DNA of 64,000 nt from Thermococcus argininiproducens (GTDB taxonomy: Archaea > Methanobacteriota_B > Thermococci > Thermococcales > Thermococcaceae). Made by a program: the position numbers and the translations under genes. Below the pieces are notes generated by a model. That model did no database searches and was not told the origin of the DNA. It saw only the letters and a program-made list of their open reading frames with translations. Every line of letters begins with the position of its first letter. The stretch's first letter is position 1. The stretch spans positions 1,286,530 to 1,350,529 of the forward strand of contig NZ_CP080572.1 of NCBI RefSeq assembly GCF_023746595.1. The letters are read 5' to 3'. This document shows positions 2,840 through 7,646 of the stretch, piece after piece.

Positions 2840-3547
2840 ATGGATGAAATAAGGGCATATCTGGGTGAGATTATCCCAGGAGGGATAGTATTAGTCTCTT
2901 ACGGGCAGTACAGCTTAGGATGGAAAATCGGAGTGAATTTTCTGAAGCAAGAATTGGAAAATGGGGGATTTGGAATAATAGCCAATTTTACAGTACCTTT
3001 TAGAAAGCTTGTATATAGGGCAGGCGCAGTTGGTTTGAATCTACTTGAACATGGAGATAAGGGAAGTATTGCAGTGATTAATGGGTTTAAAGAGCCTTTG
3101 GTGAATCATACCTTTGTGTATCCTTTTGTTGAGTTTGATGAGGAAACATTTTCTCCGAAATACAAGAATATCATGAGAAACCTGGGTCGCAAGTACAACT
3201 TTCGAGATAAAAGGGTTGTTGCAATGTTTGCAACGTTGGATGCTCTGTATGAGCATTTTGGAGGGAATTTTATAAAAAACATGATTTCTATGTATATGTC
3301 TCATACAGAAAAGCTTATCCAAGAAGGTAGAGAGTTTTATACAATTATGCTAGTTAACAGGGACGTCATTCCAGAGGGTCTTCATTCTTGGCTTGTTGGC
3401 GTGAGTGATTACGTAATTTTGAGTAAGGGGTTTTTTGAAAAAGGTGAATTCTATGAGAATATCGTGATCCTTAAAAGCATTGAACATGGCTTTAACCCAA
3501 TAGTCTTTCAAATAAAGGCCTTAACAATACCTAAAACTCTTCGTTAG
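2840..3547 (+). CDS. DUF257 family protein (Thermococcales-specific)
   Basis: A 235-residue protein of the DUF257 type, a family largely confined to Pyrococcus and Thermococcus. Its opening GGIVLVSYGQYSLGWKIG aligns by eye with the first strand and following helix of KaiC/FlaH ATPases, but there is no GxxGxGKS/T Walker A loop. The C-terminal half carries the LVNRDVIPEG segment also seen, as FVNRDVLTN, in the copy at 60.8 kb. Two further copies lie at 25.8 and 60.8 kb. No membrane segment or signal peptide is present, so it is probably cytoplasmic. GGTGG lies upstream of the ATG. The function is unknown. Confidence 0.75.
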   Translation: MDEIRAYLGEIIPGGIVLVSYGQYSLGWKIGVNFLKQELENGGFGIIANFTVPFRKLVYRAGAVGLNLLEHGDKGSIAVINGFKEPLVNHTFVYPFVEFDEETFSPKYKNIMRNLGRKYNFRDKRVVAMFATLDALYEHFGGNFIKNMISMYMSHTEKLIQEGREFYTIMLVNRDVIPEGLHSWLVGVSDYVILSKGFFEKGEFYENIVILKSIEHGFNPIVFQIKALTIPKTLR

Positions 3548-3620: not shown

Positions 3621-4463
3621 TCATGGGGGTACCAAATGGGAGCCATCGCAGCTTGGGTAGGAATAGTATCCCTCTCGGCAAGAGCCAAATGTTATACCCA
3701 TTCCTTCAATCTTTTCTCGGGCCTCTCTGAGAATCTTGAACCTTATTTCTTTGGGTAGATAGTAGTATCCAGCAATTTTTTCTCCCTTTTTATAAAGAGG
3801 GGAAAGTCTTTCCATTAATGCAGGGAATTTTGCTTCCATTCTCTTCCATGAGTCAGCCCGCAATTTTAGGGTGGAAACAGTAATATGGGAGACAAAGTCC
3901 AATGCTTTTAGAGTCTTATCAAAATCTTTCCAAGTGTAGAATGGTATTATAGGATCAATTCTGGCGTAGATGGGAATTCCTTCTTCTTTTGCCTTTTTTA
4001 GGGCTTTAATTCTCTCTGATGGAGAAGGAGCATTTGGTTCCAATAATTTGGCTTTTTTCTTGTCTACTGTTGTTATAGTGATTCCCACAGCACACTTTAG
4101 ACCTTTTAGTATATCCAAGTCTCGTTCGAATAAATTTGACTTGGTGAGGATTAAACATCTGACATCGTATCTTTGTAAGAGTTTGAGGACTTTTCGGGTT
4201 ATTTTAAGCTCTTTATCTATTGTAGGATATGGATCAGAGGAATATGACAAGGCTATTATAAAGCGTTTGTCGAAGCTTCTGAGTTCTTTTTCTAGGTATA
4301 GGAAAAGATTCTCCTTTGTCCTCACTTTAAAGGCCTTGGGGATGTATGAGGTTATATAACAGTAAACGCACGCGTGGTCGCATCCAGTATATATATTGAG
4401 AGTGTACTTAAAAGGACATGTGCAAAGTTTGGATTTCCATGGGTCAAAAGATCTAATATACAT
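3621..4463 (-). CDS. Radical SAM protein, SPL (spore photoproduct lyase) type
   Basis: The 280-residue protein has the radical SAM cluster motif in the form GCDHACVYCYITSY near residue 30, which is the CxxxCxxC arrangement of the SplB group (COG1533). It has the usual length for stand-alone archaeal members. Spore photoproduct lyases repair thymine dimers in bacterial spores, but archaeal homologues are not shown to do this. Other visible features are an early CTC pair and a C-terminal GSCREGYY segment with two more cysteines, which could bind a second cluster. It is transcribed alone, divergently from the OsmC gene. Confidence 0.8.
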   Translation of the reverse strand: MYIRSFDPWKSKLCTCPFKYTLNIYTGCDHACVYCYITSYIPKAFKVRTKENLFLYLEKELRSFDKRFIIALSYSSDPYPTIDKELKITRKVLKLLQRYDVRCLILTKSNLFERDLDILKGLKCAVGITITTVDKKKAKLLEPNAPSPSERIKALKKAKEEGIPIYARIDPIIPFYTWKDFDKTLKALDFVSHITVSTLKLRADSWKRMEAKFPALMERLSPLYKKGEKIAGYYYLPKEIRFKILREAREKIEGMGITFGSCREGYYSYPSCDGSHLVPP

Positions 4464-4521
4464 AACTTAAGGTTCACAAAAGAGATTTAAAAAATTCTCC
4501 CTATTTTGGTTAGGTGGTCCT

Positions 4522-4920
4522 ATGAAAGGAGTTGTCAAATGGATTGAGGATAAGAAGTTCGAAGCTCTGACAGAGGAGGGTGGGAAAATAATTTTTGGAG
4601 AAAGTGGCATCTCTCCAATGAAGACTCTCCTTCTTAGTGTTGCTGGATGTACGTCAATAGATGTAGTAATGATATTGCAAAAAATGCGGGAGCCCATAGA
4701 AGGTCTAGAGGTCGAAATAACTGGTGAAAGGAGAGATGAGCACCCTAGAATCTACACAAAAGCCCATCTCCATTATAAAATCTATGGAGACGTAAACGAG
4801 GAAAAAGCTAAAAGAGCAATAGACCTCAGTCAAACAAAATACTGTTCTGTGGGGGCTCATTTGAAATTAAGTGGCACTGAGGTAACTTATTCTTACGAGA
4901 TTATTAGGGAAAAAGTTTAA
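4522..4920 (+). CDS. OsmC/Ohr family protein
   Basis: The 132-residue protein is an OsmC-family member, a dimeric thiol peroxidase fold that reduces organic hydroperoxides or acts as a hydrolase. The two expected cysteines are present: one in SVAGCTSIDVV at the start of the central helix (about residue 43) and one in TKYCSVGAHL (about residue 112). The length is normal. GGTGG precedes the ATG. The next gene on the same strand, an HK97-fold shell-like protein, starts 34 bases after the stop, so OsmC is a candidate functional partner of that gene. Confidence 0.85.
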   Translation: MKGVVKWIEDKKFEALTEEGGKIIFGESGISPMKTLLLSVAGCTSIDVVMILQKMREPIEGLEVEITGERRDEHPRIYTKAHLHYKIYGDVNEEKAKRAIDLSQTKYCSVGAHLKLSGTEVTYSYEIIREKV

Positions 4921-4954
4921 GGCTCTCTTTTCTAAATTTTATATGGTGGGTTTA

Positions 4955-5239
4955 ATGAGGGGAGAACTTATTAGGGTTTTAAGTGGTGTTGAAGAAAAGG
5001 CCAATGAACTTAAGATGGAAGGATTTGAGCCAGATATTGTTCTGTTTGGGAAAGAGGCATACGAATTCCTGAAAAGTCAAGTTAATGCAGAATTTGGAGG
5101 AGAAGATACAGTCTCAGAGATTTCTGGACTTACAATAAGGGTGGTGGAAGAGCTCGGAAAAGATGCTGTCGTTATTGATTCAAAAATTTTAGGCCTTGGC
5201 CTCGGAGGGGCTAAGAGAGTTAAGATAATCAAAGATTAA
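4955..5239 (+). CDS. Truncated HK97-fold protein (DUF1884; family 4 encapsulin-like)
   Basis: The 94-residue product resembles, from memory, the P. furiosus DUF1884 protein of known structure. Shared features are an N-terminal MRGELIRVL helix, the NELKMEGFEPDIVLFGKEAY core and the C-terminal AVVIDSKILGL plus AKRVKIIKD. DUF1884 proteins have been classed as family 4 encapsulins, that is A-domain-only HK97 capsid folds. Whether they form shells is not settled. The start is the ATG after GGTGGG; the ATG four codons earlier overlaps that site. It follows OsmC on the same strand and its last 11 bases overlap the convergent CitG-like gene. Confidence 0.75.
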   Translation: MRGELIRVLSGVEEKANELKMEGFEPDIVLFGKEAYEFLKSQVNAEFGGEDTVSEISGLTIRVVEELGKDAVVIDSKILGLGLGGAKRVKIIKD

Positions 5240-6119
5240 GTTTGTATCCACTTAGAACGAGCATACTTAGAGCAATGGCCATAATGTCCGCTAGACTTCC
5301 GGGATTTCTTAGATCTTTCTTTTCTCTCAGAAAGCTATCAAGTTCTTGGAAGGTGACTTTCCCATTCAATGCTTTTTTAGCAGTCTCTTGGACAAGAATA
5401 GCTTCTTCAATACCTGCTTTTCTTATTATAAGTGTGTCCACGTTAGTTGCTAAAAGTTCTAGAAATGCTCGTAAGGCAGCTTTTTCAAGAGGAAGTGAGG
5501 AGGTAAGTTGTTTAAGCTTTTCAAAGGTAGAATAACTAAGTTCATATCCATTTAGCCATTCTTTGAATATCAACTCTCTTTTGCTTGAGACTTCGGCGAG
5601 TTTCCACAAGTTTACTTCATCTTTCACAATTGCATCAAATGAGGAGTCGTCATATACATCGTATTCTACTCCTTTTCTAATTCCTTTTGGATTTGCAATT
5701 CTTATTGCTCTGTAGAACTCAATAGTATCTTGGGGGGTTGAGGAGCGTATTAAGAGCTTAGTTTTTTCTCTAGCGGAATCAATGTCTCCACTCCATGTAA
5801 GAGCGACGATTAAGGGGACTGCTAAAGTTATGATGCCAAAGTTTGGATTGGAGTTCTGGATTTTCTTGGAGTTTTCAACAGCTTTTTCTATGAGTTTCCC
5901 AAGCCTTGCGTCTCGGGGTAAGAGTTCTTTATTTTTAATTTGTTTCCCTCTTTCTGCAGCCTCGAAAAACACATCCATAACTGCTGTGTTGGCAAAAAGA
6001 AAATGATAAAATGTAAGGTCTTCAAAGTCTTTATATCTATTTACATTTCCTGGTTTGGGTATTGCTACTTCTAGTAACGGTCCTATGGTAAAGGCTTTAA
6101 CAACCTCCCATGTTTCCAT
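5229..6119 (-). CDS. CitG-like triphosphoribosyl-dephospho-CoA synthase family protein
   Basis: The 296-residue protein carries the PKPGNVNR motif near residue 22 and the helical, charged body of the CitG/MdcB family (COG1767). CitG makes the prosthetic-group precursor of citrate lyase from dephospho-CoA and ATP. No citrate lyase genes are seen here, so archaeal members may serve another nucleotide-transfer reaction. It follows the DUF4097-like gene by only six bases and is probably the last gene of that minus-strand operon. Its 3' end overlaps the convergent HK97-fold gene by 11 bp. Confidence 0.7.
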   Translation of the reverse strand: METWEVVKAFTIGPLLEVAIPKPGNVNRYKDFEDLTFYHFLFANTAVMDVFFEAAERGKQIKNKELLPRDARLGKLIEKAVENSKKIQNSNPNFGIITLAVPLIVALTWSGDIDSAREKTKLLIRSSTPQDTIEFYRAIRIANPKGIRKGVEYDVYDDSSFDAIVKDEVNLWKLAEVSSKRELIFKEWLNGYELSYSTFEKLKQLTSSLPLEKAALRAFLELLATNVDTLIIRKAGIEEAILVQETAKKALNGKVTFQELDSFLREKKDLRNPGSLADIMAIALSMLVLSGYKLNL

Positions 6120-6125
6120 GCTACA

Positions 6126-6998
6126 TCATTCCACGATTATTTTGCCTACAAAGTTCTTGGCTGTTAATTTTAAAGTCTTTTCTCCAACTTCAAACCCCTT
6201 ATCTATGGTTATTGATGTTAAAGATCCTTCAATTTCTGGTGCTACCTTAATATTGTCTGGTATGTAGAGAGTAACTTCACCGCTTCCCCGGTATATGCCA
6301 ATTTGAGAGCAATATCCCTCAATTTCAATATCAGGGCATCTTTCGAGGCTTATTTCCATTTCCCCTACGAAGTTAGCTGTTGTGAGGCTGCTAAATGACC
6401 CTGAGACTTTAAAGTCTCCAATAACATTTTCTATATTGATTGAGGTAACGTCAGCTATGTTGATGTCTACATCTCCCACGGTGTTTCTTAAAGTTAGAGA
6501 ATTAATGTCTGCTTCTTCCCCAACTTTAATGAAAAGTTTCCCATTTCTGTACTCAGGACATCCAGAACAACTTATCTCTAAAACATCTCCTTCGTTTATC
6601 CTTAATGGCAAATTGCTGAGGACTTTTATACCATCTCCAGACACTCTCACGATGCTGATCTCCGCGGCGATGTTCTCTATATCTATCTTGGATGCTTGGA
6701 ACTCTCCAAGTTCTTTAACATCTCCAGCCTCTCTGAAGGAAAAGTGCCATCTGAAACTTGTCTCAGGGGTTACAAGATAAAGGGCGAGGTAAAGAATAAA
6801 CACGACTCCCAAGAGGGTTCTTGCATTTCGGTTTTTTATTAAGATGTAAAGACCAGCGATAAGTAATGTGACTCCCCAGAATGTTTGTTTGATGTATTGT
6901 GCATAAGGTAGCAAATAATTATAAAATTGTGGCTGGAAACTTCTTAAAAGTAGTAAGAGTCCAAAAAATACTAAAAATACGCCAAGAAGCCTCTTCAT
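6126..6998 (-). CDS. Membrane protein with DUF4097-like beta-repeat domain
   Basis: The 290-residue protein has three hydrophobic N-terminal segments (roughly residues 3-20, 40-58 and 62-78) followed by an extracytoplasmic-looking domain of short beta repeats (…NTVGDVDINIADVTSINIENVIGD…, in repeats of about 20 residues ending in G-D/E). This is the layout of LiaF/DUF4097-type proteins, which in bacteria sit beside PspC in envelope-stress operons. Here two PspC-domain genes lie directly upstream, supporting the same association. The function in archaea is unknown. Confidence 0.65.
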   Translation of the reverse strand: MKRLLGVFLVFFGLLLLLRSFQPQFYNYLLPYAQYIKQTFWGVTLLIAGLYILIKNRNARTLLGVVFILYLALYLVTPETSFRWHFSFREAGDVKELGEFQASKIDIENIAAEISIVRVSGDGIKVLSNLPLRINEGDVLEISCSGCPEYRNGKLFIKVGEEADINSLTLRNTVGDVDINIADVTSINIENVIGDFKVSGSFSSLTTANFVGEMEISLERCPDIEIEGYCSQIGIYRGSGEVTLYIPDNIKVAPEIEGSLTSITIDKGFEVGEKTLKLTAKNFVGKIIVE

Positions 6999-7000
6999 TT

Positions 7001-7441
7001 TTATCCCCTCGCCACCAAGTATAGTCCAAGGACCAAGATAAGCACGGCAACGATTTCTCTAAGACCTAGGAAAGGAATTGGGATAAATTCTTTTAAGAGT
7101 AATGCGGTTCCTAGGATGACGAGAGCTATTCCAAAGAGTTTTGTATCGTCTTTTTTCTCAATTTTTGGAGCTTTCTTGGCGAATTCTTCCACTTTTTCTC
7201 CAGTCTCTTCAACTATCTTTTCAAATTTTTGAGGGATCTTTTCTGCAGTAACTATTTCTTCCTCTTCGGGCATAACTATAGCCATTAGGAAGTATGCTAG
7301 GATGAACACGGGTTCTACGAGACACAAGAGGATAAATAATATCCTTATTATTGTGGGATCCACTTCAAGATATTCAGCAATACCACCTAAAACTCCTAAA
7401 AATACCTTGTTTCTTTTACTCCTCTTTAATCTCTTTTCCAA
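7001..7441 (-). CDS. PspC domain membrane protein
   Basis: The N-terminal 60 residues are a PspC domain (RSKRNKVFLGVLGGIAEYLE..DPTIIRILFI) with one long hydrophobic segment ending in MPEEEE. A charged linker (about residues 65-105) and two more membrane segments follow. The likely start is TTG at 7441, seven bases after GGAGGTG, giving MEKRLKRS as in the neighbouring paralogue; a GTG at 7450 lies inside that ribosome binding site. The 5' end overlaps the upstream PspC gene, so the two are translationally coupled. Bacterial PspC proteins sense envelope stress. Confidence 0.75.
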   Translation of the reverse strand: MEKRLKRSKRNKVFLGVLGGIAEYLEVDPTIIRILFILLCLVEPVFILAYFLMAIVMPEEEEIVTAEKIPQKFEKIVEETGEKVEEFAKKAPKIEKKDDTKLFGIALVILGTALLLKEFIPIPFLGLREIVAVLILVLGLYLVARG

Positions 7442-7646
7442 CTTCTTCACCTCCTTCCTTAGGCTCCTCGGGCATTACAACCGCCAGGAGGAGATATAAC
7501 AAAACCGCCGTCCCTACACTTCCTATGAGTAGTATTATAAAAAGTATCCTTACAAGAGTAGGATCGACGTTAAAATATTCTGCTAGTCCACCACAAACTC
7601 CAAATAACATTCTATTTTTTCTGCTTCTATACAGCTTTTTTTCCAT
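7416..7646 (-). CDS. Small PspC domain protein (76 aa)
   Basis: An almost pure PspC domain: RSRKNRMLFGVCGGLAEYFN, then VDPTLVRILFIILL, a second hydrophobic stretch, AVVMPEEPKEGG and a charged tail. It is the first gene of a four-gene minus-strand set (PspC, PspC, DUF4097-like, CitG-like). GAGGTGA precedes the ATG. The domain is strongly similar to that of the next gene, so the pair arose by duplication. Confidence 0.8.
   Translation of the reverse strand: MEKKLYRSRKNRMLFGVCGGLAEYFNVDPTLVRILFIILLIGSVGTAVLLYLLLAVVMPEEPKEGGEEVGKEIKEE

Follow-up and report, generated by a model that had tools for sequence, protein, structure and literature searches.

Family 4 of the encapsulins was defined by the Pfam family PF08967, and four archaeal operon types were described for it, namely those with [NiFe] sulfhydrogenase, OsmC, GAPDH, and DeoC (Andreas & Giessen, 2021; PMC8346489). 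In the OsmC type, the OsmC gene, often accompanied by MarC, lies directly upstream of the gene for a family 4A protein. That paper also proposes complexes between enzymes and A-domain proteins, citing a GAPDH–A-domain complex from a proteomic study of Pyrococcus furiosus. The family 4A protein of structure 2PK8 crystallized as a dimer; those authors put forward pentameric facets as a hypothesis (PMC8346489). Our literature search found no later experimental work on family 4. The gene pair studied here lies in a window of 64,000 nucleotides (the whole stretch of Thermococcus argininiproducens DNA that was analyzed), and it is a locus of the type described in 2021 in Thermococcales, in which one OsmC gene is followed directly by the 4A gene; there is nothing unusual in the pairing as such. 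Described OsmC loci often have MarC, whereas the window locus has none, and we found no other difference between them. The original prediction had called OsmC an unusual partner and the pair the best candidate in the window for an undescribed system. Because PMC8346489 lists the OsmC operon type among the four, the novelty of the partner falls and the idea of an undescribed system was rejected, which guards against presenting an already known type of locus as novel. The features of the locus are as follows.

3621-4463, minus strand: divergent radical-SAM gene beside OsmC (Pfam PF04055, 65.9 bits)
4464-4521, plus strand: intergenic region common to OsmC and the divergent radical-SAM gene, delimited from sequence only
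4522-4920, plus strand: OsmC-family gene of the YhfA subfamily, 132 aa, with Cys43 and Cys108 and a PF02566 match
4921-4954, plus strand: spacer of 34 bases with a likely ribosome-binding site, GGTGGG, at 4945-4950
4955-5239, plus strand: family 4A encapsulin-like A-domain gene, 94 aa, with PF08967 and encap_f4a matches
5229-6119, minus strand: convergent CitG-like gene (Pfam PF01874, 190 bits)

The open reading frame of the 4A gene covers 4943-5239 on the plus strand, and the alternative in-frame ATG at 4943 would add four residues that are not conserved. The conserved start MRG[DE]LIR places the ATG at 4955 and thereby fixes both the length of 94 aa and the gap of 34 bases, so that the order of the two genes on one strand and their spacing proved to be exactly as first read. 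At its 3' end, the 4A gene is overlapped by the CitG-like gene over 11 bases. Upstream of OsmC, two plausible signals can be read from the DNA letters alone, a TATA box in the AT-rich TTTAAAAAAT (4486-4495) and a ribosome-binding site in GGTGG (4513-4517), and OsmC and 4A may be co-transcribed from a promoter within 4464-4521.

The original assignment of the 94-aa protein to DUF1884 (PF08967), the proposed family 4 A-domain encapsulins, was borne out by profile searches. The protein matched PF08967 at 106.7 bits (cut-off, 31.4) and the NCBIfam model encap_f4a (family 4A encapsulin shell protein) at 156.8 bits (cut-off, 90), while the 4B and 4C models of NCBIfam scored far below encap_f4a. It is homologous over its full length to PF0899 of P. 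furiosus (PDB 2PK8), a family 4A protein of the hydrogenase type (E 1.2e-29). We regard the window locus as very probably a Thermococcales locus of family 4A (A-domain encapsulin-like) and of the OsmC type. The AlphaFold2 model of the 4A protein (mean pLDDT, 77; residues 80-94 poor) found 2pk8 as its best structure match (E 4e-9, TM 0.82), and the PDB matches after it were mainly HK97 capsid proteins, at weak scores (probability <=0.92, E ~0.25, TM ~0.56). The predicted structure thus supports a resemblance to the A-domain of HK97 capsids at the fold level.

Among viral predicted structures, the 4A model matched capsid proteins again, together with several small stand-alone proteins. The predicted folds of three of these, F8WPN2, A0A068EMQ5, and S5M4U9 (82-111 aa), resemble 4A roughly as closely as those of capsid A-domains do. 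One could suppose that the ancestor of 4A was not a truncated capsid protein but a small, independent viral protein with an A-like fold, because F8WPN2 (E 4e-3) and A0A068EMQ5 (TM 0.63/0.71) are whole proteins of 82-91 aa that rank among the best viral matches and fit 4A at least as well as capsid proteins do. However, E-values were weak throughout, HK97 capsids make up most of the PDB matches that follow 2pk8, and the search for PF08967 relatives in viral contigs, phages, and plasmids found none, and we consider such a descent quite improbable. A viral or mobile origin nearby was rejected on the absence of PF08967 from the viral contigs, phages, and plasmids searched.

The OsmC protein matched PF02566 at 64.4 bits (cut-off, 27.5). 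Its sole match in NCBIfam at E <=0.001 was PRK10738, 'OsmC family protein', at 101 bits, which is below the cut-off of 138; OsmC_like_Se matched marginally (E 0.03), and no Ohr or OsmC peroxidase subfamily model of NCBIfam, TIGR03562 included, gave a match. The nearest structures by sequence and fold were 1ml8 (E. coli YhfA), Aq_1549 (2e8c and 2egt), and TM0919 (1vla), and Ohr and OsmC proper were more distant. We take both 1ml8 and PRK10738 to be YhfA, their own records reading 'hypothetical protein (crp region)' and 'OsmC family protein', respectively. TM0919 carries the name hydroperoxide resistance protein, which is a deposited name only. The window OsmC belongs to the YhfA type, E. coli YhfA and Aq_1549 being its best relatives in sequence and structure, and to our knowledge neither of these has an A-domain partner.

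This placement bears on the earlier description of the protein as a peroxide-detoxifying enzyme. Ohr and OsmC are thiol peroxidases, but YhfA is not (PMC4069020). The peroxidatic residue of Ohr, Cys61, is activated by Glu51 and Arg19. The window OsmC has the fold and both family cysteines in common with these peroxidases, and an alignment of 43 Thermococcales OsmC sequences with 1ml8 and Aq_1549 showed Cys43 and Cys108 to be invariant. In contrast, at the position of the catalytic Glu of the NPE motif, which follows Pro and lies 10 residues before the peroxidatic Cys, every OsmC sequence aligned has Met, which is Met33 in the window protein; the window protein reads SPMKTLLLSVAGC at this site, where E. 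coli OsmC reads NPEELIGAAHAAC. Arg is absent from the N-terminal 50 residues of the window protein but present there in some relatives. Since the YhfA subfamily is excepted from thiol-peroxidase activity and Met replaces the catalytic Glu, the peroxide-detoxifying label is unsupported, and the candidate role of a standard peroxidase, for which no peroxidase model matched either, was set aside. Because both cysteines are kept, the sequence is compatible with a possible, though unproven, peroxidase activity, and the window OsmC should not be called a peroxidase by default. The same genome has a second OsmC-family gene (L184:1390-1824), directly downstream of an open reading frame for a 435-aa putative aldehyde ferredoxin oxidoreductase-like protein. 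Its product shows a likeness, at a score under the cut-off, to the model for OsmC-related (seleno)proteins, and it matches TIGR03562 at 19.5 bits, also below cut-off.

The survey covered 94 Thermococcales genomes, another 21 from the phylum, and 14 controls. PF08967 was present in 92 of the 94 Thermococcales and in none of the 21 and 14 others (0/21 and 0/14), and close homologues of the window OsmC were found in most of the Thermococcales genomes. Same-strand linkage of OsmC and 4A recurs across genera, and this recurrence, together with the distribution of PF08967, indicates that the pairing is more than chance. The linkage in related genomes that the original prediction had anticipated therefore exists, but it is loose. 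In counts of species, which are not independent events, 20 have OsmC and 4A directly adjacent (every determinable member of the genera g1, g5, and g6, plus three from g4), 38 have MarC and/or other genes between them, and 23 carry them at separate loci, among them every g2 and g3 (Pyrococcus-like) genome that could be determined. These figures differ from the automatic tally of 21/37/23 in that G068, with MarC between the genes, was reassigned and G064, with a broken OsmC reading, was excluded. Genomes in which the genes are unlinked keep both. In three genera, all members show direct adjacency (10/10, 6/6, and 1/1) with short and constant spacing, which fits a real operon there. On the 4A tree, which has 93 columns only and many unresolved forks, the state 'no OsmC' needs about 10 changes, at least four of which are forced by well-supported branches.

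The flanking junctions are firmer. The junction of the radical-SAM gene with OsmC is intact in all 81 genomes in which it could be determined, and 4A lies tail-to-tail with the CitG-like gene in 76 of the 77 genomes outside the Pyrococcus-like genus in which both were found. Both are opposite-strand pairs, and both hold better than OsmC–4A, which is the weakest junction of the radical SAM/OsmC–MarC–4A/CitG block. Overlapping convergent ends are hard to break, however, so that the 76/77 for 4A–CitG need not mean function. Depending on the genome, MarC moves together with either 4A or OsmC, and in several (e.g., G001, G018, G022, G025, and G044) it stands directly before 4A while OsmC is elsewhere. 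This last arrangement, and the stability of the radical SAM–OsmC and 4A–CitG junctions, would suit a partner of 4A that is encoded elsewhere or is MarC itself, OsmC being adjacent only through the kept ancestral block. Yet the loci of g1, g5, and g6, the window included, lack MarC and 4A is still conserved there, and we hold this explanation as a possible but tentative one. In several Thermococcus-like genomes, MarC and 4A are separated by an insertion that encodes a protein of about 280 aa without any match in Pfam (L066:5110-5949 and relatives).

A physical partnership between OsmC and 4A is weakly supported. A dedicated cargo-loading tail on OsmC was rejected, because the C-tails of linked proteins are no longer than those of unlinked ones (6.1 vs 7.4 residues after Glu126) and carry no conserved added peptide. 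Among the 73 genomes with all four genes, which include no g3 genome, the partial distance correlation of OsmC with 4A was 0.05, and no co-evolution beyond the controls was seen (4A–CitG, 0.43; OsmC–radical SAM, 0.51); this is a weak test, the correlation and tail tests both being weak on proteins this short. The rate of change of 4A showed no clear difference between genomes with linked and unlinked OsmC, which is likewise a weak test.

According to the proposal of Andreas and Giessen, OsmC would be a true cargo or partner, and 4A facets or small shells would bind or enclose the OsmC dimer, protecting or channelling redox chemistry. The same-strand pair with its 34-base gap and the direct pairing throughout g1, g5, and g6 speak for this proposal, as do the GAPDH complex with its own A-domain protein, as cited in PMC8346489, and the overlapping DeoC–4B pairs (42/42 loci), which show that family 4 genes can couple strongly to an enzyme. 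On the other side, OsmC–4A is the least conserved junction of the block, interrupted in 38 species and apart in 23, OsmC has neither a cargo-like tail nor extra co-evolution with 4A, and its active site departs from those of known peroxidases. The proposal thus appears rather unlikely for this pair. Taken separately, a direct physical OsmC–4A complex is doubtful, and it is highly improbable that a 4A shell encloses OsmC. It is more likely that OsmC is a syntenic, sometimes co-expressed neighbor rather than a dedicated cargo, and 4A would be a small homo-oligomer that may act as a general accessory or adaptor protein and not as a closed shell. Against a view of OsmC as a neighbor only, the loose linkage does not exclude a complex, being compatible with binding between products of separate loci.

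The family 4B loci are organized more tightly. Each of the 42 DeoC loci examined has DeoC overlapping 4B, and the other eight 4B loci have GAPDH upstream, at a distance of 48-70 bases in seven of them. Of the 50 loci (L085-L094 and L187-L226), 49 have a gene for a riboflavin-type ECF S component convergent with 4B, with DeoC or GAPDH upstream alike; the upstream enzyme therefore changes while the downstream neighbor stays. The linkages of DeoC–4B and GAPDH–4B are tight, whereas that of OsmC–4A is loose, and this genomic ranking of family 4 partnerships indicates where an A-domain complex should be sought first. The 4B proteins of the DeoC and GAPDH types belong to the same fold family as the window 4A; they differ from it in an identity of only ~25-39%, in having no extended loop, and in that the 4B gene overlaps the DeoC gene. 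The window genome has such a second family 4 gene, a 4B after DeoC (L085), and also a family 1 encapsulin match (PF04454). In the Pyrococcus-like genus, 4A of the PF0899 type comes after [NiFe] hydrogenase genes; the window genome has a hydrogenase gene cluster that lacks an adjacent 4A, and its similar hydrogenase gene (L181) is followed by the gene for a HycI maturation protease instead.

The most useful by-product of the comparison is that family 4 genes hold a fixed convergent neighbor while the upstream enzyme varies. The fixed neighbor is the CitG-like gene for 4A outside the Pyrococcus-like genus and the riboflavin-type ECF S component for 4B throughout, and the genes swapped upstream are OsmC, MarC, or none for 4A and DeoC or GAPDH for 4B. 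We tentatively suggest, as one possibility that we would not yet favor, that family 4 genes sit at fixed sites tail-to-tail with a gene other than that of the proposed enzyme partner and that the A-domain protein is a general module with a changing partner, or has a function independent of the upstream enzyme. If this reading is true, the 'operon type' would not be a reliable pointer to the cargo of 4A.

Elsewhere in the window, the open reading frame at 2840-3547 (plus strand) encodes a 235-aa protein with no match in Pfam or NCBIfam. At 7001-7646 (minus strand), two overlapping tandem genes for PspC-domain proteins adjoin the gene for a LiaF-like membrane protein (6126-6998), and this block is kept downstream of CitG in the same genus.
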